Positions 1,571 to 56,100 of a stretch of 64,000 nucleotides of DNA are shown here, in pieces. The DNA is from Lyophyllum atratum (Eukaryota; Basidiomycota; Agaricomycetes; Agaricales; Lyophyllaceae): the NCBI GenBank assembly GCA_014905825.1, contig JACGCN010000034.1, forward strand, positions 538,003-602,002. Direction: 5' to 3'. The notes below the pieces were generated by a model, which made no database searches, had not been told where the DNA came from, and saw only the letters and a program-made list of their open reading frames with translations. How positions within the stretch are numbered: the stretch's first letter is position 1; every line of letters begins with the position of its first letter. The position numbers and the translations under genes are program-made.

Positions 1571-4500
1571 ATGACTTCCTCCTCAACGTCTGAAAAGTCC
1601 TTGGGAATTCCTGGAAATATCTCAAATCCTATAAAGAAACGGCGAAAGGGTGCAACTCGCCTCAGCTGTGCTGAGTGCCGCAGGTACGGCCCTGTGGAGT
1701 CATCAATTGAGTTCTACTCAACGTCGCTCTTAGGTTGAAGTTACGATGCGATCGAGGCATTCCTTGCGGCTCATGCGTCAAACGTGGATGCGGGGCTATC
1801 TGTCCTGATGTACGGCTACCCCTGCTTATTCCTGGTCGCATGATGCTAACTTTGCTATCGGCAGGGTTCTCTAACCACTGGACAAGGAAATCGGTACAGA
1901 TCGAATGCCTGCGGTACATAATGTATAATATTAACTAAACATTTGGACAGGTTCGTCCTTGCATCGACTCAAGAACTGCATGAAAAAATTGCAGAGCTTG
2001 CGACACGCGTCCGGCAGCTCGAAGATGGGTTACGCACAGCACATTCTCATCTATCGTCGGAACAGCACCCCTTACTAGCCGAAGAACTTCTTCGGATAAA
2101 AGCACCCCTGCAACGAGAGGCTGCACCTCTTAGGACTCCGAACGCCAACCCTGTTAAGGAGGAGGAGCAAAACCCTGATGTCGTGGATGCATTCGGCTCA
2201 CTGTCAATCAGCATATCCGGTCGAGCCAATTACTTCGGTCATGTGGCTACCTCCTGGGTAAATCCTTTGCTCTCAGCGTATTGGCTATACCCAGCTAACA
2301 TCGCCATATCAGTATTTCCTACAGGTCTGTTTTACCCTTCTGCCCACGATCCGGTCATTTATCAACTTCCGCTTTGTAGAACGAGCTGCCAGAAGACGGT
2401 GATCAGGGGGACCAACTCGCGACCCTTCGTACCGTACTGCCCTCAGACATCCTCAAGAGAGCGTCTGCGTTCCCAATATCGGCCACCAATCAGTCCTCTG
2501 AAAGTGAGCGCGTCGGCCTACAGGACCTTTTTTGGTACCTTCCACCTGCGGACAAGGCTCTTGAGCTTCGATCCATTTATTACAGCCACGCGGCATGGAT
2601 GTAAGTCGGCTTTGTGACGAATCGGATCCGGGCTCAACTAGGTTTGATACAGGTACAACCCCATCTCCCAGGAGTCATTTGACTCTCAAGTATACACACA
2701 GTTCTATGATCCCAACATCGGCCCGCAACCTGACGAGCCTTTGCTATCTCATCGTCTCTCCCTCGTATTCATGGTTCTTGCCATCGGGTCCCTCATGAAC
2801 ACGTCTCTCCCGGCTTACAATCTGGAGGCTGAAAAGTACCACCAACTCGCAAGAGCAGCTCTGTTCACGAACTCAATATTTGATGAGCCGACTATAAACG
2901 CTGTGCAGGCCTTGGTACGTCTGTTCTGATGACACATGGGATGACTCTAAACATGTAGTATTACCAGTACCTTATGACATTCTATCTTTTCTTGGCTGAT
3001 CGTCACGGCACCAATTCTGGGGCCCGATGGGCGATAATGGGGATCGCGGTTAAAGTGGGTCAGAGTGTGAGTTATTCTTAATTCCCTTCCGGGTCTTCTG
3101 CTCTGACCGCTGTGTCCACCAACGTTCTGTAGATTGGACTACGTCAGAAATGTTTATGTTGAATCAACTTCGCCGAACTAACTGTTATACAGATCGCGAT
3201 AGCGGGCGCTGGAAGGTCGATGCACAGGAAACGCAGAATCGACGTGAGCTGTTCTGGGAATTGTTCACGTATGATTCTTGGCAATGTTTCACCTTCGGTC
3301 GACCACCATCCTTCGCGTTACCCCATGTGGATTGCAAGATGCCTTTCCTGAATGACGCGTCCGACGAAAAGAGCTGTATGTCACATATCCCATAAATAAC
3401 CTAATCAGCTACTCACAGGTCATGTCAGTCCACGCTTGGAAGCATCGTTTCAGTTCTGAATGCATGAACCTTCTCCACGATCAAGCCTTCGGGGCGAAGA
3501 TGCCGACATACGCCACCGTCCTCCAGCTCGATCGCAAACTGCGTGCTTTCCCAGTACCACCCGTCCTCCAGGTTGCAGGTTTCGGAAGCTCAGAGCCTCG
3601 GTCCGGTGGTTACCCTGAAACTGTGATGCTGACTCTCCAACGGCATGTCGTGCTTGCCATCAGAGAAATGGGTGCGTGAACTTTCCGACCTCGCCCCGTG
3701 AGATTATTGATCCATGGGATACGTCCCACAGACTTGTTGTATCTCCACAGAAGCTTCTTTGCACGAGCTATTAGTGATCATCCGAAAGATCCTCTGGGGA
3801 GTCCCTACGGAACATCCGTGATCGCAGCCTATCGAAGTGCAGGCTCTCTGGTGGCGCTGATGCGGAACCTTCACACTCAACTTAAAGAACCTAGCGAACG
3901 GATATGGTTCTTGTGGACGCACATGTTCTCTTGTGCGGTAAGTGTTACGGCAGTTTCATGATACCTAGAAATTTTACTGAGCACTGAATAGATTATTTTG
4001 GGATCGATCGTGACCCGATGTCCGTCGATGAGCCTAGCACCGTCTGCGCTAGTGCAGCTTGATTCTGCCTGCGAACTTTTCTCCAAGACGGCTCACGGAT
4101 TCCGTGCCGGGAAGGTTTTAGTGAGTTCTAAAACCCTTCTCAAGTAGCCCTCGGCCCGATTCATCTGACGAAACTATTATAGGATATCATGTTACACCTG
4201 CAGGAGAAAGCCCATTTCAGCCTTGAAGAATTCAGGAAGGGACGAGGTTCTCCAGTGACCAAGTATAGCCTGTCTTCTTCAGGCGACTCTCCTACTTCGC
4301 CAGAGGAAGACGATGAGCTGTCGATTCTAGGTGGAAAGACGCGGTTAGTTGCAAAAAAGGAACCGTCTTCGCCGACAATCATGGAGCGATCACCTACATC
4401 ACGCAACCCCATCGTGCCGCTGCCATTATCTCCATCTATGCAAGGCCAAGTACACCCAAGTGTCTGGGAGTACCTAGACTCATTCGGCCACCAACCATCG

Positions 4501-4992
4501 CAGCAGCTTCCAAACCACAGCCCGACGCACTCTCAAACTCGGCACAACTCGGGCTCGACGAGCAGGCATAGTTCCTACTCAGAAGATCTTTCGCCAGTAT
4601 CCATGTATGGGATGTCGACGATGCCCACGGCGCCTACGTTCCAGGCGGAGCCGGCACCGTATGTCTCGCATTCTCAACCCCAACTCGAACAAATGTCCCC
4701 TACGGTCCAGTACTCAGCCCAGGCGCAGGCTCGTGGTATGATGGGAGACCAACAGACGTCGGGCCAGACCTTCCCGCAATACTTCCCTGTATATGATTAT
4801 GGCAGCAACATGATGAACGGGGGAGGTATGAGTACCAACATGAATGGTGGAATCAATGGGACGGGCACCTATGCTGATGCGCCCATGCTGGATGCGAACC
4901 CACTCCCACCTGGCCAGCGGCGTGCGTCGGGGTCGCCTGAAGGAAACATGCAGTCTACCTGGCACGAGTTCGTGGCTGGTTTGTCGATGTAG
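1571..4992 (+). CDS. Zn(II)2Cys6 fungal-specific transcription factor
   Basis: Predicted nuclear DNA-binding regulator. The ATG at 1571 opens a basic N-terminus (KKRRKG) running into a Zn2Cys6 cluster split by an intron: CAEC before it, then RCDRGIPCGSC and KRGC after it. A coiled-coil-like stretch follows near 1950-2050. The middle homology region typical of Fungal_trans proteins runs about 2650-4080 (GARWAIMGIAVKVGQS, then HRDSGRW and RRELFWELF). The tail (4189-4992) is rich in Ser, Pro, Gln and Met and is probably an activation region. Many short introns interrupt the gene, and one exon is only 10 nt (3133-3142). The target genes cannot be inferred, and no metabolic cluster lies beside it. 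The family call is firm, but exon edges between 1690 and 2650 are approximate. Confidence 0.85.
3133..3142 (+). other. 10-nt microexon in the zinc-cluster factor
   Basis: Intron 3067-3132 (GTGAGT...TAG) and intron 3143-3192 (GTCAGA...CAG) leave a 10-nt exon between them. Joining all three pieces reads VGQS-IGL-HRDSGRW, the conserved GxSIGLHRD motif of the Fungal_trans domain. Skipping the exon loses the motif and shifts the frame. Confidence 0.8.
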
Positions 4993-5571: not shown

Positions 5572-8384
5572 CTATTCTGAAGCATGGGTCAGGGGATCGA
5601 TGCAGATGATCCCGTCCCGCTCGCTCCAGGGGTATCCCCACCGGTGCAGCCACTCTCGGACGCCGGTGGCGAGGCGGGCGCGGGAGGCACCGCGGGCGGT
5701 GTCCTGGGTGCCGGTGTGCTTTTCTTCTCCGACAACGGCGTAGGCTGTGAGCGGAGGTGGGTTAAATGAGGTGTTGAATTGTAGATGGGGATGACATACC
5801 CAGTCCATAGAAATGTTCGTTCTCGAGCTAAGGACATACGTCAGAAACGGACGTGGATCAAGGGATATGGGGGACTTACAGCAAGCAAAAACGGCTCCAA
5901 CACCTCCGTCGCCTCATTCGAATGCAACCCATGCAAATCCAACAGCGCCTCCATCCTCTCCTCACTCGACAACTTCCCATCCCCCGTATCCCGACTCGCA
6001 ATCCCCAAACACACACCAAACCCACCCCCGCACGAGTTCCCCCTGCTCCCCCGATCGCCAGGGTCGTCCGACCACGACGCGTCCCGGCTCCTCACAGCCT
6101 GCTCCGCCACCTTCGCGCGCTCCCGTACAAGCTTCGCCGCCGCCGCCGCCATTTCCACCGCCATCTTCGCGTTGAGATCGTGGCCTTCCCTGCTGAACCG
6201 CTTCGCCGCCGCCCCGTCTCCGCGGCGCCAGGCGTCCGCTGCACGGGATAGGCACGCGTTCCGGGCGCCGCCGAGCTGGAGCGCGCGGGAGCGGTAGGCC
6301 ATGTACATGCCGCTCACGGCTTCGCCTGTAGGGAGCGTTGGGAGGAGGAGCGGGGGGCGGAGCTTGAGGCGGGGTGAGGGGCGGGGCGCCACGATGGCTG
6401 AGCGGTGGTGCAGGATGTCTGCGGAGGGCCCGCCCATGCGTGCTGCGATGGCGGGGTCGTTCGAGGTGGGGGCAGCGGGCGGGGTGGGTGGGGCGGGTTT
6501 CTTGACGGCGGCGGAGAAGCGGGTGCGGCCGGGGTCGTTATAGTTTCGTTCGTACCCCCCGCGCCGCCCGCGAGCGCCAGCAGCACCGTTGTCGTACCCG
6601 AGGACGGGGAAGTCGTCTTGGGGCGGGCTGGGGTGGGTGGCGAGGGGCCCGGTGCCGGGCTGGATGTTCGCACGCGACATGGCGATGTTCAGGCTGGAGA
6701 TGTCGGCGTCTTTGGGGAGGTGGTGGAGGAATTCGCAGCTTTCTTGCTTGGCGCAGGTGCCGCGTAGCCAGAAGCGGCAGAGCGCGCGTTCGAGATCGTG
6801 ACTGGGAGTAGGGGCACACTCAGTACTCGTAGATAGGGGGGAGGATGTAGGACATACCTGAATCTACAGTCGGCGCGGAGACATTCTCCTGCCATGAAAT
6901 ATCGACAAACTCTGTTTCCGCCGGGGACGGGCCGAGCGCGACCAGCACCGTTGTTGCCGTATCTGGGTCCGTTGCCGTTGCCGTTGGCGAAGGTGCCTCT
7001 GCCAGGAGGACCGCCGCGGCCGTTGCCCATGGCGTCTCGCGAGATGAGGGTGACTCGACCACCCATGGGCTGCATCCTGATCTGCGGTGCAGGCTGCGCA
7101 GCGGGGGCACGGTCCACAAGCCAGGCCATGGCGCGCTCAAAGTCGTACCCGTTGGCTGCTAGGGCGTCTTCGAGCTCGGACGGGGCGAGGGTAGATCCAA
7201 AGACGGAGGAGAGGACGTCGAAGGGCGTCATACCGTCTGTGAGCATGGCCTGGGCGTCGGCGGACATGTCCCCGGCGTCTTGGAACTCGTTCGGGGGGGA
7301 GTCTGTGAAGTTGTAGGGGGGCATGTGGTAGGGCCAGGACATGTTGTCGTAGTCAGAGACAGTTACGGAGTGGAATGAGGGCGGGGCGCGGTTGGGGGCG
7401 AAGGGGTCGAATGGGTCGTCTTCGTCGTCATCGAGTCGCAGGCTGGTACGCAGGGATGAGCTGGGTGTTAGTGAACGAGGTTGTTGAGATGGGGATCCAG
7501 GGATTAGTGGGGCCGCGATGGCTAGGTTTGAGGTGGCTCTGGGAGAGTTGTGGGCCCAGAGATCGGGTGAAGGAGTGTCAGTACGGAGATATGATCCGGG
7601 GGTGGAGGAGGCAGCGGAGAGGGGGCGTGGGATGGGCTTGAACTCGGACGCCTTGGCATTGAGCATGCGCGGGGAAGAGATGGGGGAGGCTGGGAGACTG
7701 GCGGTGAATTGGGCATGAGCGTGTGTTGCCTGTACGTGAGCGAGAACGGGGGACGACTGCGGGGAATAATCGCTTCTGGCAGACATGTACGAGGTGGGCT
7801 GTGCGATTCCGGCCAGTGGAGAGGTTACGGGGGTGTGAGGGCGTCGAAAACCGATAGCAAGGGGCGAGGTGGGAGCAGAGTTGGGGGTGTCTGGACGAGC
7901 AGGATAGAGACGGGTCGAGTTTGCAGACGCACGGGACGATGGACGGGAGATGGGACGACGAGTAGAGGTCAGGTAGAAGAAGGGAACACCGGCCACGTCG
8001 TCCCGATGTTTATGCATCAGCTCCAAGACATTTTGTTCCAGCTGCACCAAGGTCAGTACAACATCCTCATCATACACAAAAGACTGATCACACCGTCTCG
8101 TCGTCCATCCCATAGGTGCCCTTCAGCAGCGCCTTCAGCTCGTCCTCCTGCTCGTCGGCAAGCAAGGCTGCCACCCGGTTCACGAGCGATGAAGGGACGC
8201 GATTGAACTCGTCGCTGTCTGCATCACTGTCGTAGTTGTCGAGGGGCTTGTGCTGGCGCGCGATGGCGGAGAGCTGTGCTCGAGTGTGCGGGAACTTGGG
8301 CATCAGCGAGGACGGGTCGGCGGCAGAGTCTGAGAATGCGCCAGAATCATACGGAGGAGTGAATGGCAGTGTCAGGGAGGCCAT
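5572..8384 (-). CDS. CCCH zinc finger, DUF1771 and Smr domain protein
   Basis: Probable RNA-binding protein. The first exon (8088-8384) starts MASLTLPFTPPYDSG. A long Ser/Pro-rich region follows, then a CUE-like segment (LEDALAANGYDFERAMAWL), then two CCCH-type fingers: CRYFMAGECLRADCRF and, after an intron, CRFWLRGTCAKQESCEFLH. DUF1771 comes next (MYMAYRSRALQLGGARNAC...AAKRFSREGHDLN), then a C-terminal Smr domain (LDLHGLHSNEA...RLATGVREWL) ending at 5572. The Smr LDxHG motif is intact, but the usual TGxGxHS loop reads VVGEEKHTGT, so nuclease activity is doubtful. The order fingers-DUF1771-Smr fits a known fungal architecture. Introns near 5780-5830 give a 28-nt exon (LENEHFYGL). It diverges from the kinase at 8499 with 114 bp between start codons. 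Confidence 0.85.
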
Positions 8385-8498
8385 TGCTGGGAAAGAATGT
8401 TCAAACGAAGGGATGAATGAACACCATTGATCATCGGAGCCTCAATAATACAGGAGCCCACAGCCTCTTGAGTGAGCCTCGATACCCTGTCGATACCC

Positions 8499-9368
8499 AT
8501 GGACCCATGTAAGTGTGGCCGACAGCACGGTTCTGACACTCCCGAAGTCTTTCTACGGGCAGATGGCTTCTCCCTGGAACCCAAATACATCCTCGGTCTC
8601 ATATCCACTGGGTTCAGTATGCCAGGCCCAGGCGTCACCCGCATTCTGGAGGACCTAGTGTTGAAGTATGACTGCGACTCCCGTGTCGCAGAGGCGGAAA
8701 ACTCTGAATTCGTGCGGAAGAACACCAACATTCCCGTCCCCAAGGTCCTCCTAGTCTTCTGTTTGAAGGGTTTCACAGGGATCGTCTTCGAGTTCATCAA
8801 AGGGACTCCCCTGCGCGACTACTGGGGTGAGGTGGGCGATGAAGAACGAAGCAGCATCATTGCTACAACTGCCTCGTATATATCTCAACTCAGATCCTTG
8901 GAAGCACCACCGCGACCTGGACCGGTCAATCCACTGGCTGCGTGGCGCGGCCGCTGGTTCACCAATTATGATCTCGAACCATTGCCATCCCACGCGGCAT
9001 TGGTCGATTGGCTGAATCACAAGCGCGCCGTTTGCGAACGGTTCAACAAACTCGGTGACAGTGGGACGGCTCGACCATTCACCACGGACTACGATTTGGT
9101 TTTCACTCACGGTGACATCGCGCCTCGTAACTTCGTCGTCGACGACAACCGAGTGCTGTGGCTTATCGATTGGGATACTGCAGGCTGGTATCCGGCCTAC
9201 ATGGAGTACACTACCATTGTGACCGCGCAGGATGACATGCATAATCCGATTGTTGGTTGGGAGGACTGGGTCAAGTCGATAACAGCCGCAATCGACTGCT
9301 ACGACGAGGAGACGCAGATGCTGTGGTCCATCTGGTGGGCTTTGAACACGGGGCCTTTCATTCTCTGA
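8499..9368 (+). CDS. Aminoglycoside phosphotransferase-family (APH) kinase-like protein
   Basis: Intronless gene for 289 residues. I chose the ATG at 8499 because the reading frame upstream has only a GTG. It shows the kinase-like catalytic core: the Brenner-type loop HGDIAPRNFVV (catalytic Asp and Asn) and the metal-binding LIDWDTAGWYP. The N-terminal lobe carries LVLKYD and a hinge-like VFEFIKGTPL. Such APH proteins are expanded in Agaricomycetes, and most have no known substrate. The N-terminus has a Cys/His cluster (CKCGRQHG) of unknown meaning. Lack of introns is unusual in this intron-rich region. Predicted cytosolic small-molecule kinase. Confidence 0.85.
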   Translation: MDPCKCGRQHGSDTPEVFLRADGFSLEPKYILGLISTGFSMPGPGVTRILEDLVLKYDCDSRVAEAENSEFVRKNTNIPVPKVLLVFCLKGFTGIVFEFIKGTPLRDYWGEVGDEERSSIIATTASYISQLRSLEAPPRPGPVNPLAAWRGRWFTNYDLEPLPSHAALVDWLNHKRAVCERFNKLGDSGTARPFTTDYDLVFTHGDIAPRNFVVDDNRVLWLIDWDTAGWYPAYMEYTTIVTAQDDMHNPIVGWEDWVKSITAAIDCYDEETQMLWSIWWALNTGPFIL

Positions 9369-34194: not shown

Positions 34195-34196
34195 TA
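34195..34196. repeat. TA target-site duplication, left
   Basis: TA immediately outside the left terminal repeat. It is matched by TA at 37791-37792 on the right, as expected for Tc1/mariner-type insertion. Confidence 0.85.
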
Positions 34197-34227
34197 CAGT
34201 GTTTTGCATGTGAGATTGCAGCCATCA
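34197..34227 (+). repeat. Left terminal inverted repeat (31 bp)
   Basis: Begins CAGTGTTTTGCATGTGAG. It matches the reverse complement of 37760-37790 at 30 of 31 positions: the first 25 are identical and position 26 differs. Confidence 0.92.
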
Positions 34228-34298
34228 TTCTCGCAAAATGATCACGAGGTCAGGTGAGGTGACCCATCACAGCAATCCCACGCCATCTCACGCTCGTT

Positions 34299-34308
34299 TG
34301 CAATCTCA
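34299..34308 (-). repeat. Subterminal inverted copy of the TIR core
   Basis: TGCAATCTCA here is the reverse complement of TGAGATTGCA at 34211-34220 inside the left terminal repeat. It may be a second transposase-binding site, or chance given its 10-bp length. Confidence 0.4.
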
Positions 34309-34658
34309 TCGATGAGCACGATCCTCGAGCTTTTGCTTTTTTCTTGACTTCTTGCTCCGCTGCGTTTCAGTCTTCATTTCAAGGATACATCCGACACTAG
34401 TCCCTCGGGCGGAACTTTGGGGCCTTGCAACCATCATGGTTGGCAAAGGGTGAGCTTTGTCCTGCAATTTCGCCACCAATATGTCTCTGATCATCGGGGC
34501 GGCATATTCTAGATACATTCAGTAGACTAGGCACATGTATATGAGGTTTCCATTCCAATGTGAAGGGTCATGGTGCCAGATTGACACCGGCCGATGATAC
34601 AATGCCGTGAAACAGTTATATTCAGGACGATTTTTCGAGGCATTTTTCAAGTTCGAAA

Positions 34659-36505
34659 ATGCTCCCCAACTTCACTCTGCTGGACTCTCGCGACAAGGAG
34701 AACACCCCGAACATGTCTGTCCCTATGCAGAGGCGCCCCGCCTCTGAATTTTGGCTTCAGAATCCTGGATGGATAGGTGAGTGAATTCCTGACTTGACAG
34801 TGATATCGATGCTCACACCCGTCTATAGATGGTGCTGTCAATCCACCTCAGTTCTACACTAGCCATGAAGAAATGAATGCGACATTGATTGCATATGGAC
34901 GGCCACCACGCCCACTACCGCTGCAAGCCGTCCGCGATGCTTTAGCGTCTTTATCAGACAATGCGGGACTGGCGGCTTCTGCCACTACGAGCGAGGCTCC
35001 TGGATCACAGGCAGTTTCAGTGGAAGCTCCGGCGTGCAACGGTAAGCTTGCTCGTCCAGGAGTGCATCGTCTACATTAATAATTGGCTGCGTCATAGCTG
35101 ATCCATCGTCGCATCTCGTCACTGTTGTGATGGCGTACTCTGCCCCAGTCGCACCGACTACTCGAAATGCGAAGCCAACGACAAAGAAAACCCGCACCAA
35201 CAAGGCCAAAAACATCTCGATCGAAGGGACAACACGTGTCGAATTTATCAAAGCTTGTCTCTCGGTTCATGACATCGCCGAGAAGTTTAGTCCTGGAGTC
35301 CACTCTGGCCCCGACTTCATGCTTTGGTGGCCAGGCGGCGCGTACGTACTTCTCGTTCCATTTGATTTCATGTGTTGGCAATTCACTTCACTTCCAGTGG
35401 CGGCAAGACAGGAGCGCCGACAATTTCTACTGACGATGATTTCAACACGGTCGTCGTGGAGTTGCTGGCAAAGGACAAGAAGAAGAAGTCCCTCACACAC
35501 GTTTCGGTCGAATTCGATGTCGATAAGATGGAAGGGTTTCGTATCAAGCAGCCGGTATTTCCTTTCTTATGTACTTCTATGCCCACCATTCATATTTCAC
35601 AGGCTCCTTGGGACGAAGCGAACACGGCGGCTGGAGAAGAGGAGCTAGCATATGGGACACGTGTATGTTGGTCGCTTGTATCTCTTGCGACGCTTGACTC
35701 ACTTTTTCGTTATCAGGTTCCTCAAGTTGGGATGTTCAGCGAGGCCTCCCAGATTAACGGCAACTTCATTCTCATGCTCAAGCAGAAATGGAAATGCGAC
35801 AAACATCTCGGCGAGCATGGGGAACCAGGGTTCTGTTACACGACACCCGATCACGGCCATCTTCCGCTCAACCACCTTCGATTTAGAACATGGGCAGCAG
35901 CTATGGTACGATCCTATTCCTTTTTTGTCATCATATCTGAACACAATCCTGAACAGGCTGCTGGAAATTGTACGAAGAAGGAGCCTCCAAACGCACCTGA
36001 GTTTGATGGTGTACGTGACGGAACCCTGCTCGATACACGTCCGCGAGGTCGCAATGGCCCATATCCGGCAGCTTCGGCCCCCTCCACCCCTGCAGCTCCT
36101 GACATGTCAGCTCTACTTGGTGTTGCCACTGTTGCACTTCTCAAGGACCTCACCCGCCGTAAGCGCCGTCGTCATTATTCGTCATCTCCACCGTCATCAC
36201 CACCTCGTGCCAATACTGCACCTCCACGTGCCTATTCTCCCATCCCTCTGCCACATCTTGAGCTCACCACATGTCTCGACAACTTCAAGACATCGAAATT
36301 TGTCGATCTTACAATGCATGAAACTGCTCTGGCCAAGCTGGAGCTTACTCCGGCCATCATTCCACAGGTTCCTGTCGCGCGCTTGTGTGAGATCATGCAT
36401 ATACCTGAGGGTCGTGTTCACAAGTTGCAGCTATTTTGTCGTGAGTGGCAGGCTCGCCTTGAGGAGAAGAGTAGCCATCTCAACAAGAAACCTCGTCTCG
36501 ACTAA
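34659..36505 (+). CDS. Transposon-borne accessory protein, unknown function
   Basis: Seven exons (34659-34776, 34829-35041, 35098-35341, 35398-35554, 35603-35662, 35717-35905, 35957-36505) total 1,530 nt with no internal stop, giving 509 residues. I do not recognise a named family. The N-terminus (MLPNFTLLDSRDKENTP) leads to a basic stretch (TRNAKPTTKKTRTNKAK). A folded-looking region follows (RVEFIKACLSVHDIAEKF, HVSVEFDVDKMEGFRIK), then a Cys/His-rich segment: CDKHLGEHGEPGFC and then DHGHLPLNHLRFRTWAA. A Pro/Ser linker with RRKRRRH could be a nuclear signal. The C-terminal helical region (LELTTCLDNFKTSKFVDLT...VPVARLCEIMHIPEGRVHK) looks like a SAM-type domain. It lies wholly inside the element and converges on the transposase. 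A role in DNA binding or transposition control is inference only. Confidence 0.75.
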
Positions 36506-36592
36506 GAAACCTCAATCTGCTCATACATATAGTAGTTATCTTCCCTAGTATACTTCTATAAGTTCTATCGTACATATATTTCGTCCCCCTAC

Positions 36593-37662
36593 TCAGTATC
36601 CACAGTTCCTAATCCACGCTTGGGCCATTTCGGCTGTAATTGCCATTCGTGCTTGGTGGATGAGCCATGGTCTGACCTCTGGTGTGGTTGCCTCTGCTTC
36701 ATGCCGTCGGAGCCATGATTTGATTGAATGGAAGCCTTGCTCGATAGGATTGAAATCGGGGGAATATGGCGGGAGGTATATCAACTTGGCCCCTGAAGAT
36801 GTGCATAAGTCGAAGTTGAACTGAACAAATGTTCGAGGGGTTGGGCGATTTACCACATTCATCTACAATTACGGCACGTATCTCTTCGTCGTGGTGAATT
36901 GCACAATTATCCATGACCACAACACTACGGGTATTTGGATATGGGTTTAATTGAGGAGCCTGGTACTGTGTTTCAATATCAGAAGCGTGTTCTCATGAAA
37001 CCACATACCAGATCATTCCGAATGAATTCCATAAATTTCTCCTTGTTCACAGAACCTTCAAAGATATCCAGGGCTATGATTCCCTCCGAGGTGAGTGCCG
37101 GGAGTACTGAATATCTTTGGCCTCGAATATAGGTGTCACGGCAGACACATGCCCGGCCAACCGTCGCCCATCCATTGCGTCGCTGATTTGTAAAATCATC
37201 AACGCTAGCTTCATCCAACCAAACAAAACAAGTAGATGGTATGGCGCCATATTCAGCCTGCCAAGTTGCCCGTAGGAGCTCATTCCGTTCAGAGGCAGCC
37301 CGCGAGACCTGCTTATTGGTGATTGCAAGTCGATGGAGGGTGCGCGAGATTGTTGAGATGGAGACATGGACACCTCGGTTGATGGCCAGTTCCTCCTGGA
37401 GTTCATCTAGGTATATCTTGGGACGGGCATCAATGAGGGAAGAAATATAATTGACATCCCCGACGTCCAAGATTCGGGATCCACCTCCGCGAGAGACCAA
37501 GGGATTGTCGACAACATTGAAATCACGATGATATGCGAGAATATTATATACAGTACGCTCACTGCAATTGGCCAGTTCGGCTATCTGTGCAACTGGTTTC
37601 CCATCGGTGTTGCGCCAGCGAACAATGCACACTCGCATTTCGTGCGAGACGACGGGGGCCAT
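36593..37662 (-). CDS. Tc1/mariner-superfamily DDE transposase
   Basis: Three exons (37009-37662, 36854-36965, 36593-36792) give 321 residues. The N-terminus has a helix-turn-helix (PVAQIAELANCSERTVYNIL) and a second helical DNA-binding part (VSISTISRTLHRLAI). The catalytic triad is complete: D150 in VWLDEAS, D237 in VVVMDNCAIHHDEE, and E273 in PPYSPDFNPIE, with 35 residues between the last two. This matches the DDE_3-type superfamily endonuclease. The start ATG at 37662 lies about 100 bp inside the right terminal repeat. No frameshift or stop interrupts it, so the enzyme may be active. It should cut at the TIR ends and insert at TA, which agrees with the flanks. Confidence 0.93.
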
Positions 37663-37759
37663 GGTGTACTCAACGACTTGGACTCATCCCTGGCACTGGC
37701 AGCCAAGGCACCGATTTGTAGGTGTCACATCACATGACAAAAAACTCGTTTCAAAACAT

Positions 37760-37790
37760 TGATGCCTGCAATCTCACATGCAAAACACTG
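37760..37790 (-). repeat. Right terminal inverted repeat (31 bp)
   Basis: Ends in ...CTCACATGCAAAACACTG on the plus strand, the inverse of the left repeat with one mismatch. Confidence 0.92.
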
Positions 37791-37792
37791 TA
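37791..37792. repeat. TA target-site duplication, right
   Basis: TA immediately after the right terminal repeat. It pairs with 34195-34196. Confidence 0.85.
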
Positions 37793-37968: not shown

Positions 37969-40900
37969 TCATGACACAAAAGACGGTGTCGGAGGTGCGT
38001 CTGGTGGTCGCGACGGCGTCGAGACCTGAGAGGGCCGAGGAGATGAAGGCAGCCCGATCATCCTTGAATGGCGGTTCCCTCGCTCTGAACCAGTCACATT
38101 CACATTCAGACCCCTCGTCGCTGCGGTATTCGAAGCCTTCGAGGGTTTCGTCCTGGAGGCGACGGGAGTGTCGGGAGGCGTTATGCGGAAACCACTTCGC
38201 GTTGCGGAAGCCTGGCCAGACTCCGAGGATGACTCCAACGTAAAGTCCCCGTCAGTCGTCTCTGCCCCACTTTCATCTTGACCAGACAGATCATCTCCGT
38301 CGGAGGGAGCCTCATTCGCCGCTGCTACTGGTCATACATCAGTTGCAATTCAGAATGCATCAGGAAAGAAGACGAGTGCACACCTTTGAGGGTGCGGCCG
38401 GTTAATCCGAGGAGCTGATCAGCTGCCGCGTCTGAGTAGTGCTTGCTGTTTCGCCGATCCAAATCCGATCCGTCACCTTCACCATTCTCCGTGTGGCTCG
38501 CACTTCCCTCTGTGTCAGCATCGACATTGAACACGCGGTTGAACTCCCCAAGCATCAAACTGAACACCCCAGCAGGAATGCCCAAAGTGGGGCTGAACAC
38601 GATGCCCACGTTGCGCATGGTCATCTTGTTAACGTTTGAGTTCTGCACGACGAGGATCAGGTGCGCCGTAAGTGCGCGAAGTAGGCTGTAGTTGGCAAGC
38701 GGTAGCGCTGCGATCAACTGCGAAAGCTCTCTGATCCTCTCTTGCGCATCCACGAAATCTGCGAGAGCGGGGGTGGGTCAGTCACCTTCGTACGGATAGT
38801 GCCGCGAGAACATACCAATGACAGCAAGAAACCTGAGATGGAGATCACGCGTCAGGATGCTGGCCGGCAGCTCACGCAGGAAGCTCTTCAACAGTCCAGC
38901 GATGGCATGCGGATCCCAATACTCGTCCGAAGCCAACAGATCCACATCGCCCTCTGTGATGGAGTTAGCTTACTGCAAAGATGACAGCTCCTGAGACTTA
39001 CCCGCATTGAATCTGTCCTTGAGACCCTTGATAACAGCAGAACTGCCACTCAGCCTGTAGATACCTTCTTCTTGATCTGCCTTCTTCGCTTCGAGGTACT
39101 GGATGGAGCGGAAAACGATCGCGGGAAGGTTGGCGATTTGTACGACATCGAGAGATTCCTCTAGCGCCACTCCGAAGACGGCTCGAGATACATAAGTGAC
39201 GGGAGGTTGGGAGCTGCCGCCTTCGGAGAGAAAATTTAAGGGATAAGTCAGTGTCCACATCGAAGTCACGAAGCAAAAACGCACCGTTCCCTTTGCTAAA
39301 GCCCCAGAATGATCGAGACTTGAGTCGTCGGTCAGCCGCTGAAGACTCAGATGCGGCAGGCGCATCTTTTCCTCCGAATTTGAACCCAGACGGAATAGGG
39401 GCTCCGTTGAGGGGTCCAGATATTTTGACCTTGCTATTTGCTTCAGCCTTGTCAGGTGATCCTGCTCGGTCGATGGGCGATGCTACGGTGGGCGACGAAG
39501 CTACGGGATTCAAAGTCGGATGGAATGACCTGTGCTTTTCGTGTGGATCTCGACTTCGGTGCCGTTCTGGAGAGACTTGACGATTGCTGCGCCCGGTAAG
39601 ATCTGGATAGTGACCAAGCTCTGAGTTGGCCCGTTGGCCAGCGCTGACTAACGATTCAGAGTGGGAATTCGAGATGACGGACAAGGGGGACGAATCGGGC
39701 AGGCTTGAAGGCATCCCCTGTCCGCGTTCCAATATCCGACGGGCAGCGGAATTTTGGGGGTCGATGGGCGAATCGACATTCTTAGAAGGGCTAGACGATC
39801 GCGCATAATCTTCATCTCCCCAACCTGGGGGTGTGAAGAGTTTAGCGTTGTTTTGGTCGGGTGGTAGCAGTGAGATTGGCACTGCTGCAGCCTTGGCTAC
39901 TGAGATATCATCCTTTGAGAACCCGCGGGGAGGTCTACGAGTGGTTGGGCTCTCTGCGATCGAACTGGTACTCGAACGGGGTTGACCGGGGGCAGGGACG
40001 CCGTTTTGATAGACTGAAGTACCTGGGACAGGTGAAGGGCCATACTTGACGGGTTCCTCACTGTATGTTCCCGAAAAATATCGAACGAGGATCTCGACCC
40101 AGGCATCCCTGTCATCGTCGCTTTCCGCACAAAGTACGTGGCGAGGGTGATTGCCCCCTGGTCCCTTCTTGGCTTCGACAATGAGGAAGGCGTGCCTGTA
40201 TTCCTTCTCCTCGTCCGTGCTGGGAGTCCGTTCACTTCGCTGCTGTCGTCCGATCTGAGCGCCAGTAATGAGAATAGAGCCTAAATGAGCTCCACCACGC
40301 TGTGTGAGAACATCCGGCTTGAGAATGTGCGAAGAACTAAAGAAATTAAACAAAACGTACACAGTCATAGTATTCCAAAACCGGCCCCTGCAGGACAAAG
40401 TATCGTGTTTTCCAACCTCCGAAGTTTTTCCCCCGCTTAGTCAAGTATCCCTCCTTATGACCGACTTGCATGACTGGTTGTTTCGTTTCGCGGACGATGT
40501 CAGAGGTAAAGAAAGCAATTACTTCATTGTTTTCTTTCACGGGTAAGTTGATGAGCATTTGTAAGTAGCTCTCGAGCACAGCCTGCAAAAAGATGAAACA
40601 ATATCAGAAAGGTCAAGCCAGTTAGTTAATAATACAATTTATATTTCGAGAGATTGGGACGAAAGATGGGAAACGAACGGACACGTACCTTTCTCTGGTC
40701 AACCTTCGCGGGCGCATGATCCTTCCACAGCTTCCCTTCAGGTAAGCTGGCAATCTTCTTGCCCATGCCCTTGCCCACGGCGCTGCGTACCCGGTGGTCC
40801 AGACTCAAAACATCAGAATACATCTTCTCGACTTTCCACCCCTCCTTCCCTTTCCCAGGGTCAACAAACACGATGAAAGACAGGACTTCCTTGCCCCGAT

Positions 40901-50180: not shown

Positions 50181-53100
50181 ATGGCCGCAGTAGACACCTC
50201 AAAACCCATAGCCTTCTGCGAGCATCTGCAGCTCTCGAGTCTCGGCGTCCAACCCGCGTCAATTTCGTTCCAGGTAAGTTGACGCGGCCGCTCTTGCTGG
50301 CGTGGTACTGACCAACCTTACAGGTTTGTCCGCAGCAGACGCTAAAGCGCAACACCGGCAGCTAATATACGCTATTCCTACAGACTCTAACTCTTGAATC
50401 CGACCATTTCATCTGTGTACGAGAAAAAGTCAATGAGCAGAACCAGGTTGTCATAATCGACCTCGCGGACGCCAACCAAGTTCTCCGGCGTCCAATCTCT
50501 GCTGACTCTGCCATCATGCACCCTCGAAAGAAGATCCTAGCCCTCAAAGGCACGTCATCTCGTACATTTTGGTTGTTCTGGTACACAGTTGACTTTGCAT
50601 TGATTAACAGCTGTCCGGACGCTCCAAATCTTCAACATTGAAGCCAAGGAAAAGGTCAAGTCGCATGTGAACAACGAGGACATTGTCTTCTGGAAGTGGG
50701 TCTCGGACACTACTATCGGCATGGTCACTGAGACGGCTGTCTATCACTGGACCCTCTCCGATGCAACATCTCCTCCGCAGAAGATCTTTGATCGCCATCC
50801 AACACTAGCTGGTGCCCAAATCATCAACTACCGTGTCACACCCGACGAGAAGTGGCTGGTCCTCATCGGTATCTCGGGAAATTCCACCAATCCCTCCGCA
50901 TTCAAGGTCAAGGGTTCGATGCAACTCTACAGCCGAGACCGTGGTGTTAGTCAACCTATCGAGGGTCATGCAGCATCCTTTGCCGAAATCAAGCAGGATG
51001 GTCACCAGAAGCCAACAAAACTGTTCAGTTTTGCCGTAAGAACCGCTACTGGTGCGAAGGTCTGTTTTCCCAAACTTGAGGCTGTTGGCGACATTAATAA
51101 TCGTCTCTTCATAGCTGCATGTTGTTGAGATTGATCATACCGCGCCAGATCCACCATTCGTCAAGAAAGCCGTCGATGTCTACTTCCCACCTGAAGCAAC
51201 AAACGACTTCCCGGTTGCGATGCAGGTGTCTAAGAAGCATGGTATCATCTATCTTGTCACCAAGTACGGCTTCATCCATCTCTACGACCTCGAATCCGGC
51301 GCCTGTGTTTACATGAACCGTATCTCGGGTGAAACCATTTTCGTAACCGCGGAGCATGAAGCGACGAATGGTATCATCGGTGTCAACAAGAAGGGTCAAG
51401 TCTTGAGCGTAAACGTCGACGAGCAAACAATTATTCCGTATATCCTGACGACCCTCAACAATACGGACCTTGCGTTCAAATTGGCCAGTCGTGCCAATCT
51501 CCCTGGAGCTGACGACCTCTACGTCCAACAGTATCAGCAACTGTTCCAGACTGGCCAGTACGGGGAGGCTGCTAAGATTGCTGCGAATTCACCGAGGGTG
51601 AGAACTACTCATTCCGTTTTGCTGATGTCTTTCTGACCGAATCTCCGACAGGGTATTCTTCGTACTGTTGCCGTTATCGAATCGTTCAAGCAAGCACCCA
51701 CACCACCTGGCGGCCTATCTCCCATCCTCCAGTACTTTGGTATTCTGTTGGAAAAAGGCGAGCTCAACCATCTCGAGTCCGTTGAACTTGCGCGTCCCGT
51801 GCTCCAACAAGGCAGGAAACAGTTGCTGGAGAAATGGCTCAAAGAGAACAAGGTAATATTTTTCCGAGCCAGTGTGAACACCACTAACCGTTTGTTTGTG
51901 CAGCTTACGTGCAGTGAAGAGCTTGGCGACATCGTGCGCCTCCATGACATGACCCTTGCCCTGAGCGTCTACCTCCGCGCCAGTGTTCCCAATAAGGTCA
52001 TTGCATGCTTTGCCGAGACCGGCCAGACGGACAAGATCGTACTGTACTCCAAGAAGGTGGGATACCAGCCTGACTATGTTGCGTTGCTGCAACATATCAT
52101 GCGCACGAACCCCGAGAAGGGTGCGGAGTTTGCGACCCAACTTGCCAACGATGAGTCCGGGCCACTGGTCGACGTTGAGCGGGTATGTATTTCGCCTTGT
52201 ATAAGCTGCGAGTGTCCGTCTTACGGTATATCACCTTAGGTTGTTGATATCTTCATGTCTCAAAACATGATTCAACCTGCGACCTCATTCCTACTTGATG
52301 CTCTCAAGGACAACAAGCCCGAGCAAGGACCTCTGCAAACACGCTTATTGGAGATGAACTTGGTCCACGCACCTCAAGTCGCTGATGCAATCCTCGGGAA
52401 TGAGATGTTTACACATTATGACCGACCGAGGATTGCGAACCTTTGTGAAAAGGCTGGTTTATTGCAACGCGTGAGTCTCTTTCCATGCACTGTAAGCTAC
52501 TATGTCTGACAACATCTCCAGGCCCTCGAGCACTACGAAGATTTGGCTGACATCAAACGCGCCATTGTCCACACCACCACCCTACAAGCTGATGTGAATT
52601 TCCCTTACAATCCCCTTTGTTGATTTACTTACCAAACCTTTCAGTGGCTGGTCAACTACTTCAGCCGCCTGACAACTGAGCAGTCAATGGCGTGCTTGAA
52701 TGAGATGCTTCGTGTTAACATCCGCCAAAACCTCCAAGTCGTCATCCAGATTGCCACCAAGTATTCTGACATCCTAGGCCCAGTCAAGCTCATTGAGATG
52801 TTCGAGAGCTTCAAGAGCTTTGAGGGTATGTCATTCTCCTTTTTGAATGTTCATACCGACATGACTTGCGATTCCGTAGGCTTGTACTACTATCTGGGCT
52901 CTGTTGTCAATCTCAGTGAGGACCCCGAGGTGCATTTCAAGTACATCCAGGCTGCTACCCGAACAGGCCAGATTCGCGAGGTGGAACGTATTTGTCGGGA
53001 GAGTAACTTCTACAACCCGGAGAAGGTCAAGAACTTCCTCAAGGAGGCCAAACTCGCCGATCAGCTTCCTCTCATCATTGTTTGCGATCGGTTCGATTTC

Positions 53101-56100
53101 GTGCACGATCTCGTTCTATACCTCTACCAGAATGGCCTCACCAAGTTCATTGAGGTCTACGTCCAGCGTGTCAATTCTGTCCGCACTCCTCAGGTCATCG
53201 GTGGCCTTCTCGATGTTGATTGCGACGAGACGACTATCAAGGGATTGCTCGCCTCGGTTACTGGAAACTTCCCTATCGACGAATTGGTACACGAGGTCGA
53301 GCAACGGAACCGTCTTAAATTGATTCTTCCCTGGCTCGAGGCCCGCGTCCAGTCTGGAAGCCAGGATACGGCCGTCTTCAACGCGCTCGCGAAGATCTAC
53401 ATTGACAGCAACAACAACCCAGAGCAGTTCCTCAAGGAGAACAATGTGAGTCATCTATTCTTCTTGCATGTTGCGATTCGTCTGAAAATGAAACGTGACA
53501 TTTCAGCTTTATGAACCTCTCGTCGTCGGTAAATTCTGCGAAGCCCGCGACCCATACCTGGCGTACATTGCCTATGCGAAGGGCCTTTGTGACGACGAGC
53601 TCATTGCTATCACCAATGACAATTCCATGTTCAAGCAGCAGGCTCGGTACTTGGTTAAACGCCGTCAGCCTGACCTCTGGGCTCAGGTCCTTGTGCACGA
53701 CAATGTCCACCGCCGCCAGCTGATCGACCAGGTCCGTCGAACGCATTTCCCACTCCTTACTTGTAATTTATCATTAATACCGCATCTAGATCGTTGCGAC
53801 TGCCCTTCCGGAATGTACAGACCCCGACGATGTTTCCATCACCGTCAAATCATTCCTTCAAGCGGATCTTCCTATTGAGCTGATCGAGCTCCTCGAGAAG
53901 ATTATTATCGAGCCTTCGCCCTTCAGCGACAACAAGAACTTGCAGAATCTGTTGTTGCTGACTGCTATTCGCGCTGATAAAGGAAAGGTCGTGGGGTACA
54001 TCAATAAGCTCCAGAACTACGATGCGGGGGAGATTGCCAAGATTGCGACTGACCATGGTTTGTATGAGGAGGCTTTGACCATCTACAAGAAATACGATCA
54101 ATTCGCGATGGCCATCAATGTTCTGGTGGAGCACATCGTTTCCATTGACCGCGGTCTCGACTTCGCCAACAAAGTCAACAGGCCGGAGGTGTGGAGCAGG
54201 CTCGCCAAAGCTCAGCTTGACGGTCTTCGCATCAAGGATTCCATTGGTATGTATGACTCACATCCGTTGCCGCTATATATTGACAATATTATCAAGATTC
54301 ATACATCAAGGCTGAAGACCCCTCCAACTTCGCGGAGGTCATCGAGATCTCGAATCACGCCGGGAAGCACGATGATCTCGTCAGGTTCCTCCAGATGGCT
54401 CGCAAGACTCTTCGGGAACCCAAAATCGACACGGAATTGGCCTATGCATATGCTAAGACCGACCGCCTCCACGATATGGAGGATTTCCTGGGTATGACGA
54501 ATGTCGCAGACATTCTGGAGGTTGGAGAGAAGTGCTTCGAGGACGAGCTCTACCAAGCTGCGAAGCTGCTGTTCACCAGCATATCCAACTGGGCTCGCCT
54601 CGCTACGACGTTGATTTACCTTGGAGAGAACCAGGCTGCTGTTGAAAGCGCGAGGAAAGCTGGCAACACCCAGTGAGTATCACAATTGTTGTTAAGCTGC
54701 AACGCATCTAATGTGATTATTAGGGTTTGGAAGCAGGTTCATGCTGCTTGTATCGAGAAGTCTGAGTTCCGTTTGGCTCAAATCTGTGGTCTCAACATCA
54801 TCGTCCATGCTGTACGTCCATTTCAGCCTATGAATTAAATGCCCGCCCGGTGTCTCACAGTTATTTCAGGAGGAACTCAACGCACTGATCCAAATGTACG
54901 AGCGTCGTGGACACTTCGAAGAGGTCGTCGGGTTGCTGGAGGCTGGATTGAGTTTGGAACGTGCCCACATGGGTATCTTCACGGAGCTATCGATCCTGTT
55001 GAGCAAATACAAGCCAGCTAAACGTGGGTGATACCTAACGACAATGAATAACGCTAACCTATTATCCCCTAGTCATGGAACATCTTAAACTCTTCGTCGC
55101 TCGTATCAACATTCCCAAGGTACATTTACTCTTTACTTTTCACCAAGTCATTAACTGACCTTTACTAGGTCATCAAAGCGACTGAGAAAGCACATCTCTG
55201 GCCGGAACTGGTGTTCTTGTATATCAAATACGACGAATTTGTATGTTTCGATTTGGACGTCTTTACACACGATCACTGATTGATATATGTAGGACAATGC
55301 GGCATTGGCAATGATTGAGCGCTCTGCGGATGCATGGGAGCACAATCAGTTCAAGGATGTCATCGTCCGCGCTGCCAACGTCGAGATGTGCGCTGATTTC
55401 CTGAGTCTCAATCCTTGCTGCCTATTGACATCTATTCCCAGTTACTATAAGGCCTTGACGTTCTACCTTCAGGAGCAGCCGACACTACTCACGGATCTCC
55501 TCACCGTCCTCATTCCCCGCATTGATCACAGCCGTGTCGTGCGCGTCTTCCGCCAGATTGATCACATTCCCCTGATCAGGTCATATCTCATCGCGGTGCA
55601 ACACGTACGTTCTAGTGTCTCTCTATGTTTGAACATTTATGTATGCCCCGCCTCATTAGCTCAATATTGAAGCCGTGAACGACGCATACAACGACCTTCT
55701 CATCGAGGAGGAGGACTACAAAACACTGCGCGACTCAATAGACAACTTCGACAACTTCAACAACATTAGCCTCGCGCAACGTCTAGAGAAGCACCAACTG
55801 CTAGAATTCCGCCGACTTGCTGCGCATCTCTACAAGGTATGGTAGCCGCCATTTGATGATTGGTATCAAGTGCTCACAATACTCCAGAAAAACAGCCGCT
55901 GGGAGGAGTCAATATCCCTTTCGAAGCAAGACCGCCTATTCAAGGACGCTATGGTCACTGCAGCAGTCTCCGTTTCAACCGAGGTTGCCGAGGACCTCTT
56001 ATCATACTTCGTTGACATCGGCAACAAGGAGTGCTTCGCTGCGCTCCTCTATATCTGCTTCGACCTTCTTCGCTCTGACATCGTGGAGGAGCTGTCTTGG

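Follow-up and report, generated by a model that had tools for sequence, protein, structure and literature searches.

A fungal Tc1/mariner-type element with a convergent, multi-exon second gene: organization, relatives and traces of movement within one genome assembly

Transposition by a single protein is typified by the Tc1/mariner transposases, from which gene tools such as Sleeping Beauty have been derived. The classic elements harbor a single gene and are about 1-2.4 kb long; in their transposases, HTH domains bind the element ends, whereas cutting and joining are carried out by the DDE core. Ant1 of Aspergillus niger is a Tc1-type element described as carrying part of an amylase gene of its host. 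As for second proteins, those of PIF/Harbinger (whose target site is 3 bp long) or En/Spm are thought to help or regulate transposition.

According to the passages of PMC7325037 used here, the TBE and Tec elements of ciliates are of the Tc1/mariner type and have three ORFs between their repeats (about 80 and 700 bp); TBE has a zinc-finger protein and Tec a site-specific recombinase, and purifying selection is reported on the TBE ORFs. In PIF/Harbinger and its relatives (PHIS), two ORFs are the rule, and the role of the second one is called unknown in the corresponding passages of PMC4482050. Concerning fungi, a limited search of the open-licence literature retrieved, among the matches listed, no description of a two-gene Tc1/mariner element, which does not by itself establish novelty in print; a 2020 pogo survey (PMC7386202) contains none of four phrases for a second or a single ORF or gene.

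The window, i.e., the whole stretch of 64,000 nucleotides analysed here, belongs to contig C80 of a 64.76-Mb assembly of 151 contigs, and all the comparisons were carried out within this one genome. The element under study spans positions 34197-37790; with 3594 bp and two genes, it does not have the classic single-gene form of about 1-2.4 kb. It is bounded by terminal inverted repeats of 31 nt (34197-34227 on the plus strand and 37760-37790 on the minus strand), which match at 30/31 positions with one mismatch, and an independent detection gave a longer pair of arms (47 nt, 87%). The flank letters reveal a TA both on the left (34195-34196) and on the right (37791-37792). When the 25-nt end sequence was searched in the 64.76 Mb allowing up to three mismatches, three occurrences were retrieved, corresponding to both ends of this element and to one end of a copy on C46; the same pattern read backwards gave none under the same conditions. 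The surrounding gene neighborhood looks ordinary: other open frames of the window match DUF1771 (5841-6680), an APH phosphotransferase (8472-9368), a clathrin/VPS repeat (52687-53514) and, just below the cut-off, a PH domain (38998-40398).

The two genes are convergent, with 87 nt separating their stops. The transposase gene runs on the minus strand from 37662 to 36593 and consists of three exons: the first (37009-37662) codes for the N-terminal HTH region and the first catalytic Asp, the second (36854-36965) for the second catalytic Asp, and the third (36593-36792) for the catalytic Glu, the stop being reached after 321 codons. This 321-aa model is one among 39 GT-AG combinations that retain the core motifs, and it was preferred because its relatives likewise have two introns, located at equivalent positions. 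All three acidic positions are in place (D150, D237 and E273); the spacing between the last two is 35 residues by the gene model, a figure of which a residue or more hinges on the splice site chosen. Pfam HTH_23 and DDE_3, matched in exon 1, scored above the cut-off over the part scanned (residues 1-218), and the sole PDB match to the 321-aa protein up to E 1 was the Sleeping Beauty transposase (phmmer, E 0.0015).

The second gene, hereafter the partner, lies on the plus strand (34659-36505) and comprises seven exons, for a total of 1530 nt including the stop and 509 aa, with 6/6 introns of the GT..AG type. Exon 1 (34659-34776) starts with ATG, and its tail alone can be aligned with the C46 copy; it is followed by exons 2 (34829-35041), 3 (35098-35341), 4 (35398-35554) and 5 (35603-35662), the introns after exons 3, 4 and 5 being in phase 2, 0 and 0, respectively. 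Exon 6 (35717-35905) is the best conserved (76% with respect to C46), and the intron that follows its W-A-A-A-M motif, in phase 0, aligns exactly with that of a second family discussed below. Exon 7 (35957-36505) reaches the stop; it codes for clusters of basic residues and for a helical, weakly SAM-like C-terminal region. Three of the introns (35555-35602, 35663-35716 and 35906-35956) are multiples of three and stop-free, so that an open frame (35372-36505) would be preserved if they were retained; on visual inspection, not all of them have this property in the C46 copy. The preliminary description of the locus, which had spoken of 31-bp inverted repeats with one mismatch and TA on both flanks, an intact 321-residue DDE transposase and an open, convergent gene of seven exons and 1,530 nt, is in full agreement with this organization.

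The partner did not match anything in Pfam up to E 1, and further Pfam scans gave no usable match; in particular, neither a Myb/SANT nor a known silencing-related domain of Pfam was matched. Its sequence has basic clusters near a Ser/Pro-rich linker and at its end. A structure model from the single sequence (pLDDT 69) shows a non-significant resemblance to SAM-like and helix-hairpin folds, and a profile built from three partner sequences matches a Sla1 chain at E 0.021, below significance.

Using the whole element as a DNA query against the assembly, one other copy was retrieved, on C46, with 68% identity in the partner and 75-76% in both parts of the transposase; the same query also gave 50 bp of a residual end on C69 and, more weakly, two transposases from a one-gene family. 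The C46 copy harbors both genes in the same convergent layout. This is the outcome of the BLASTN check proposed in the preliminary description, at least within this genome: the only other same-ended copy found keeps both genes, and the opposite pattern, namely same-ended copies with the transposase alone and the partner on its own elsewhere, was not observed. The C46 copy is disrupted, with no recognisable end on the partner side, and contains nested insertions, one of which is bounded by 142-bp direct repeats. These repeats (2412-2553 and 3148-3289 of L009, the C46 locus) are 96% alike, lie about 600 bp apart inside the transposase gene, and have the appearance of a small insertion of the LTR type (TRIM-like). 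Between the two genes there are about 650 additional bp (L009, about 4010-4650), which by eye abound in short motifs related to each other and may represent another insertion.

The genes of the window element and of C46 were compared codon by codon. For the partner, NG86 gave a dN of 0.273, a dS of 1.39 and a dN/dS of 0.20 over 470 codons; for the transposase, the corresponding values were 0.093, 1.15 and 0.08 over 319 codons. In the partner, the change by codon position was 27% (first), 21% (second) and 51% (third), and the introns were identical at 160/310 positions (52%; each 47-57%) vs. 67% for the exons (each 57-76%); the codon-position pattern and the intron/exon contrast support the partner gene model and a long purifying selection. 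Third-position divergence was slightly greater in the partner (0.507) than in the transposase (0.433; z 2.1), and the divergence values suggest that both genes diverged over a broadly similar, long time. Overall, we consider it quite probable that the window element is a Tc1/mariner-type transposon that is autonomous, moves by cut-and-paste and owns both of its genes; since related two-gene elements of this genome have moved very recently (see below), the second gene looks like a standing part of the element and not like a chance passenger.

The selection on the partner bears on the idea that it is mere cargo, either selfish or beneficial to the host, which became fixed in the lineage and plays no part in transposition. 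A lineage of related one-gene elements (C74 and C61, see below) does without the partner, as such a reading would have it; the purifying selection seen when the window element and C46 are compared and the retention of the partner in two families speak against it, and we regard it as unlikely.

Transposase relatives at 36-41% identity were found on C13, C64 (two loci) and C63, and represent a second two-gene family. The C64 and C63 elements are units of 3.0 kb, bounded by inverted repeats about 60 and 95 nt long, in which the transposase is accompanied by a convergent five-exon gene (470 and 462 aa). C13 likewise has a convergent partner between inverted repeats, and in C64, C63 and C13 the frames of both genes are open to the stop; the coding exons of C13 and C64 differ by four substitutions, one in the transposase and three in the partner. 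At the other C64 locus (626602), the genes are convergent as well, and the transposase match is interrupted by stops and by additional sequence. The transposases of C64 and C63 give a dN/dS of 0.06 (dS 1.79); the silent sites of the partner are saturated (pS 0.774, pN 0.27).

A single-sequence search with the partner of one family did not retrieve that of the other. The alignment of their profiles with hhalign gave 324 columns in order, with a probability of 92%, an E of 5.6e-7 and a score of 57.0; the best control scores were 23.5 in 100 full shuffles, 26.9 in 100 windowed shuffles and 15.5 for the reversed profile. Moreover, the two families agree in the order and the phases (2, 0, 0, 0) of the four introns of the shared region; two of the four align exactly, and the middle two, located where the alignment is poor, are displaced by about 4 to 6 residues. 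Judging from the profile homology and the corresponding introns, the partner probably predates the divergence of the window family and the second family.

To what extent the elements move was assessed through copies and empty sites. The C64 and C13 units are 99.7% identical from TA to TA and have different flanks, the match ending within 3 bases of the unit on each side. Empty counterparts of the intact two-gene elements were sought by flank, and 4/4 sites gave one, 3/4 with a single clean TA: that of C64 is on C123 (flanks 99% and 93%), that of C63 on C86 (flanks 100% over 1318 bp and 99.93% over 1494 bp) and that of C13 on C78, where the flanks are only 78-85% identical and the site may be a paralogue. 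The nearly identical flanks of C63 and C86 make the C63 insertion look very young. The site corresponding to the window element is on C75 (flanks 96% and 97.7%, i.e., 96-98%), where the whole unit is absent and CAG replaces TA-element-TA. Empty counterparts, together with the identity between C64 and C13, indicate that the two-gene units of the second family move as a whole, and the window element is a real and probably mobile DNA transposon. For the one-gene C74 element, the search by flank gave no result, the flank being repetitive; its left part (L011, 1035-1834) has at least 51 matches in the genome, about 11 of them to a 640-bp piece and many to a 96-bp piece.

The CAG of C75 corresponds to the last three bases of the window element. 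CAG-like remnants resemble Tc1/mariner excision footprints, and the three letters could be a footprint left by this very element; as a proof of excision, they were rejected, since one substitution and one insertion at a pristine site give the same letters. The presence/absence of the element across C80 and C75 is an observed fact, which may reflect either insertion or excision. An assembly chimera was also considered and discarded, as the two families and the empty counterparts speak against it. C75, C123 and C86 share long, highly similar stretches with C80, C64 and C63, respectively, which suggests that the assembly contains both haplotypes of a dikaryon or heterozygote, a circumstance useful for dating insertions; judging from flank identity, the empty sites would be allelic to the filled ones. 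The preliminary description had proposed a recent, possibly ongoing movement, to be sought in empty sites. Such sites turned up within the same assembly, and the proposal holds well for the second family, with its clean TA sites and 99.7% identical copies; for the window element, of which the assembly holds no near-identical sister copy, it holds only through the C75 site.

A census was carried out on the one assembly at E 0.001, with only the best candidates scored, so that the counts are lower bounds. At least eight partner-like loci were found (C80, C46, C13, C64 twice, C63, C66 and C86), 6/8 of which adjoin a convergent transposase; further DDE_3 matches lie on contigs such as C122, C57, C62, C24, C35 and C116. 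The remaining two, C66:526868-528649 and C86:536399-537063, are decayed and partner-only, 95% alike over 1.3 kb, with no transposase in the flanks examined; these relics (918-2229 of L067 and 908-2212 of L069) were possibly spread by another repeat. Transposase-like loci are at least 13, including six two-gene, two one-gene (C74 and C61) and four distant ones (C66:534076, C130, C84 and C1), with C119 left out of the classification; beside the distant ones, no partner was found in the flanks examined.

The two one-gene elements are 1.38-1.39 kb long, with perfect 26-bp repeats and open transposases of 323 codons that are 97% identical to each other; they consist of the transposase alone and leave no room for a partner. 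Their existence implies that the partner is not universal, and their 97% identity that this lineage moved without a linked partner. Their transposase shares with that of the window 52-53% identity over exon 1 and 58-59% over the spliced protein; in terms of spliced transposases, one-gene and second families share 44%, and window and second families 40-43%. A nine-row tree left the branching order open. The ends of the one-gene and window elements differ at 7/25 bases.

That a related one-gene element occurs in this genome is what one would expect if the window element were a one-off capture or nested insertion, with a host gene riding as cargo in an ordinary one-gene Tc1/mariner element. Such an origin appears highly improbable, given that the same-ended C46 copy shares both genes and their layout, that a homologous partner, with introns in corresponding places, is present in the deeply diverged second family, and that, at E 0.001 and with the best candidates scored, no partner homologue was found outside element-like or decayed loci. 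A capture that occurred before the two families split is possible. Thus, between the capture and the two-component system that had been proposed at the outset, the latter is supported by the convergent transposase at 6/8 loci and by purifying selection, and a one-off capture is rejected.

As to mechanism, the transposase would bind the element ends via its N-terminal HTH domains and would cut and paste at TA. By analogy with the second proteins of other elements, the partner may be an accessory or regulatory protein encoded by the element itself; less certainly, it would be nuclear and would help or regulate transposition through end binding, oligomer assembly or the control of chromatin and silencing. 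We tentatively propose, giving it a chance that falls just short of even, that an old and still active fungal branch of Tc1/mariner is a true two-component transposon, whose partner, of a new family, belongs to the transposition or anti-silencing machinery, and whose one-gene relatives arose by loss. The transposase-only C74/C61 family and the two partner-only decayed loci count against a two-component reading.

The movement of the one-gene relatives without a linked partner would also agree with a regulator or anti-silencing factor, encoded by the element and dispensable for the chemistry of transposition, that controls element expression or chromatin; the faster evolution of the partner with respect to the transposase (dN/dS 0.20 vs. 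0.08) would fit. The lack of a match to known silencing-related Pfam domains argues in the other direction, and we consider such a role a serious but somewhat doubtful possibility.

The partner represents a protein family that matched no Pfam entry here. As its lineage has long kept a second protein and is still moving, one can test directly what such a partner adds to the minimal reaction. The presence/absence of insertions within one assembly suggests that this natural system may be active now.

Compared with the known systems, the two-gene elements share with Tc1/mariner (IS630-Tc1-mariner) the TA target, the short inverted repeats, the N-terminal HTH and the DDE transposase; they differ in their length of 3.0-3.6 kb and in the multi-exon convergent second gene. 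The spacing of the last two catalytic residues of the window element may differ as well, being 35 by the gene model, with a residue or more depending on the splice site, and 34 in the classic form. Ant1 is likewise a fungal Tc1-type element with extra sequence, whereas here a conserved partner is common to element families. The resemblance to PIF/Harbinger, as far as the part of the literature used here describes it, concerns the way of working, i.e., a transposase plus a second, usually DNA-binding protein; that transposase belongs to another superfamily and its partner is usually of the Myb/SANT type, whereas no Myb/SANT match and a 2-bp TA target were found here. TBE and Tec, in the passages considered, are alike in having extra ORFs inside Tc1/mariner-type repeats, with purifying selection in TBE, but they have three ORFs and ciliate hosts, whereas the window element has two genes, 31-nt repeats and a partner without a Pfam match. 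Tc1/mariner elements with extra genes are already known from ciliates, and the limited literature search gave no fungal counterpart of the two-gene form with this partner.
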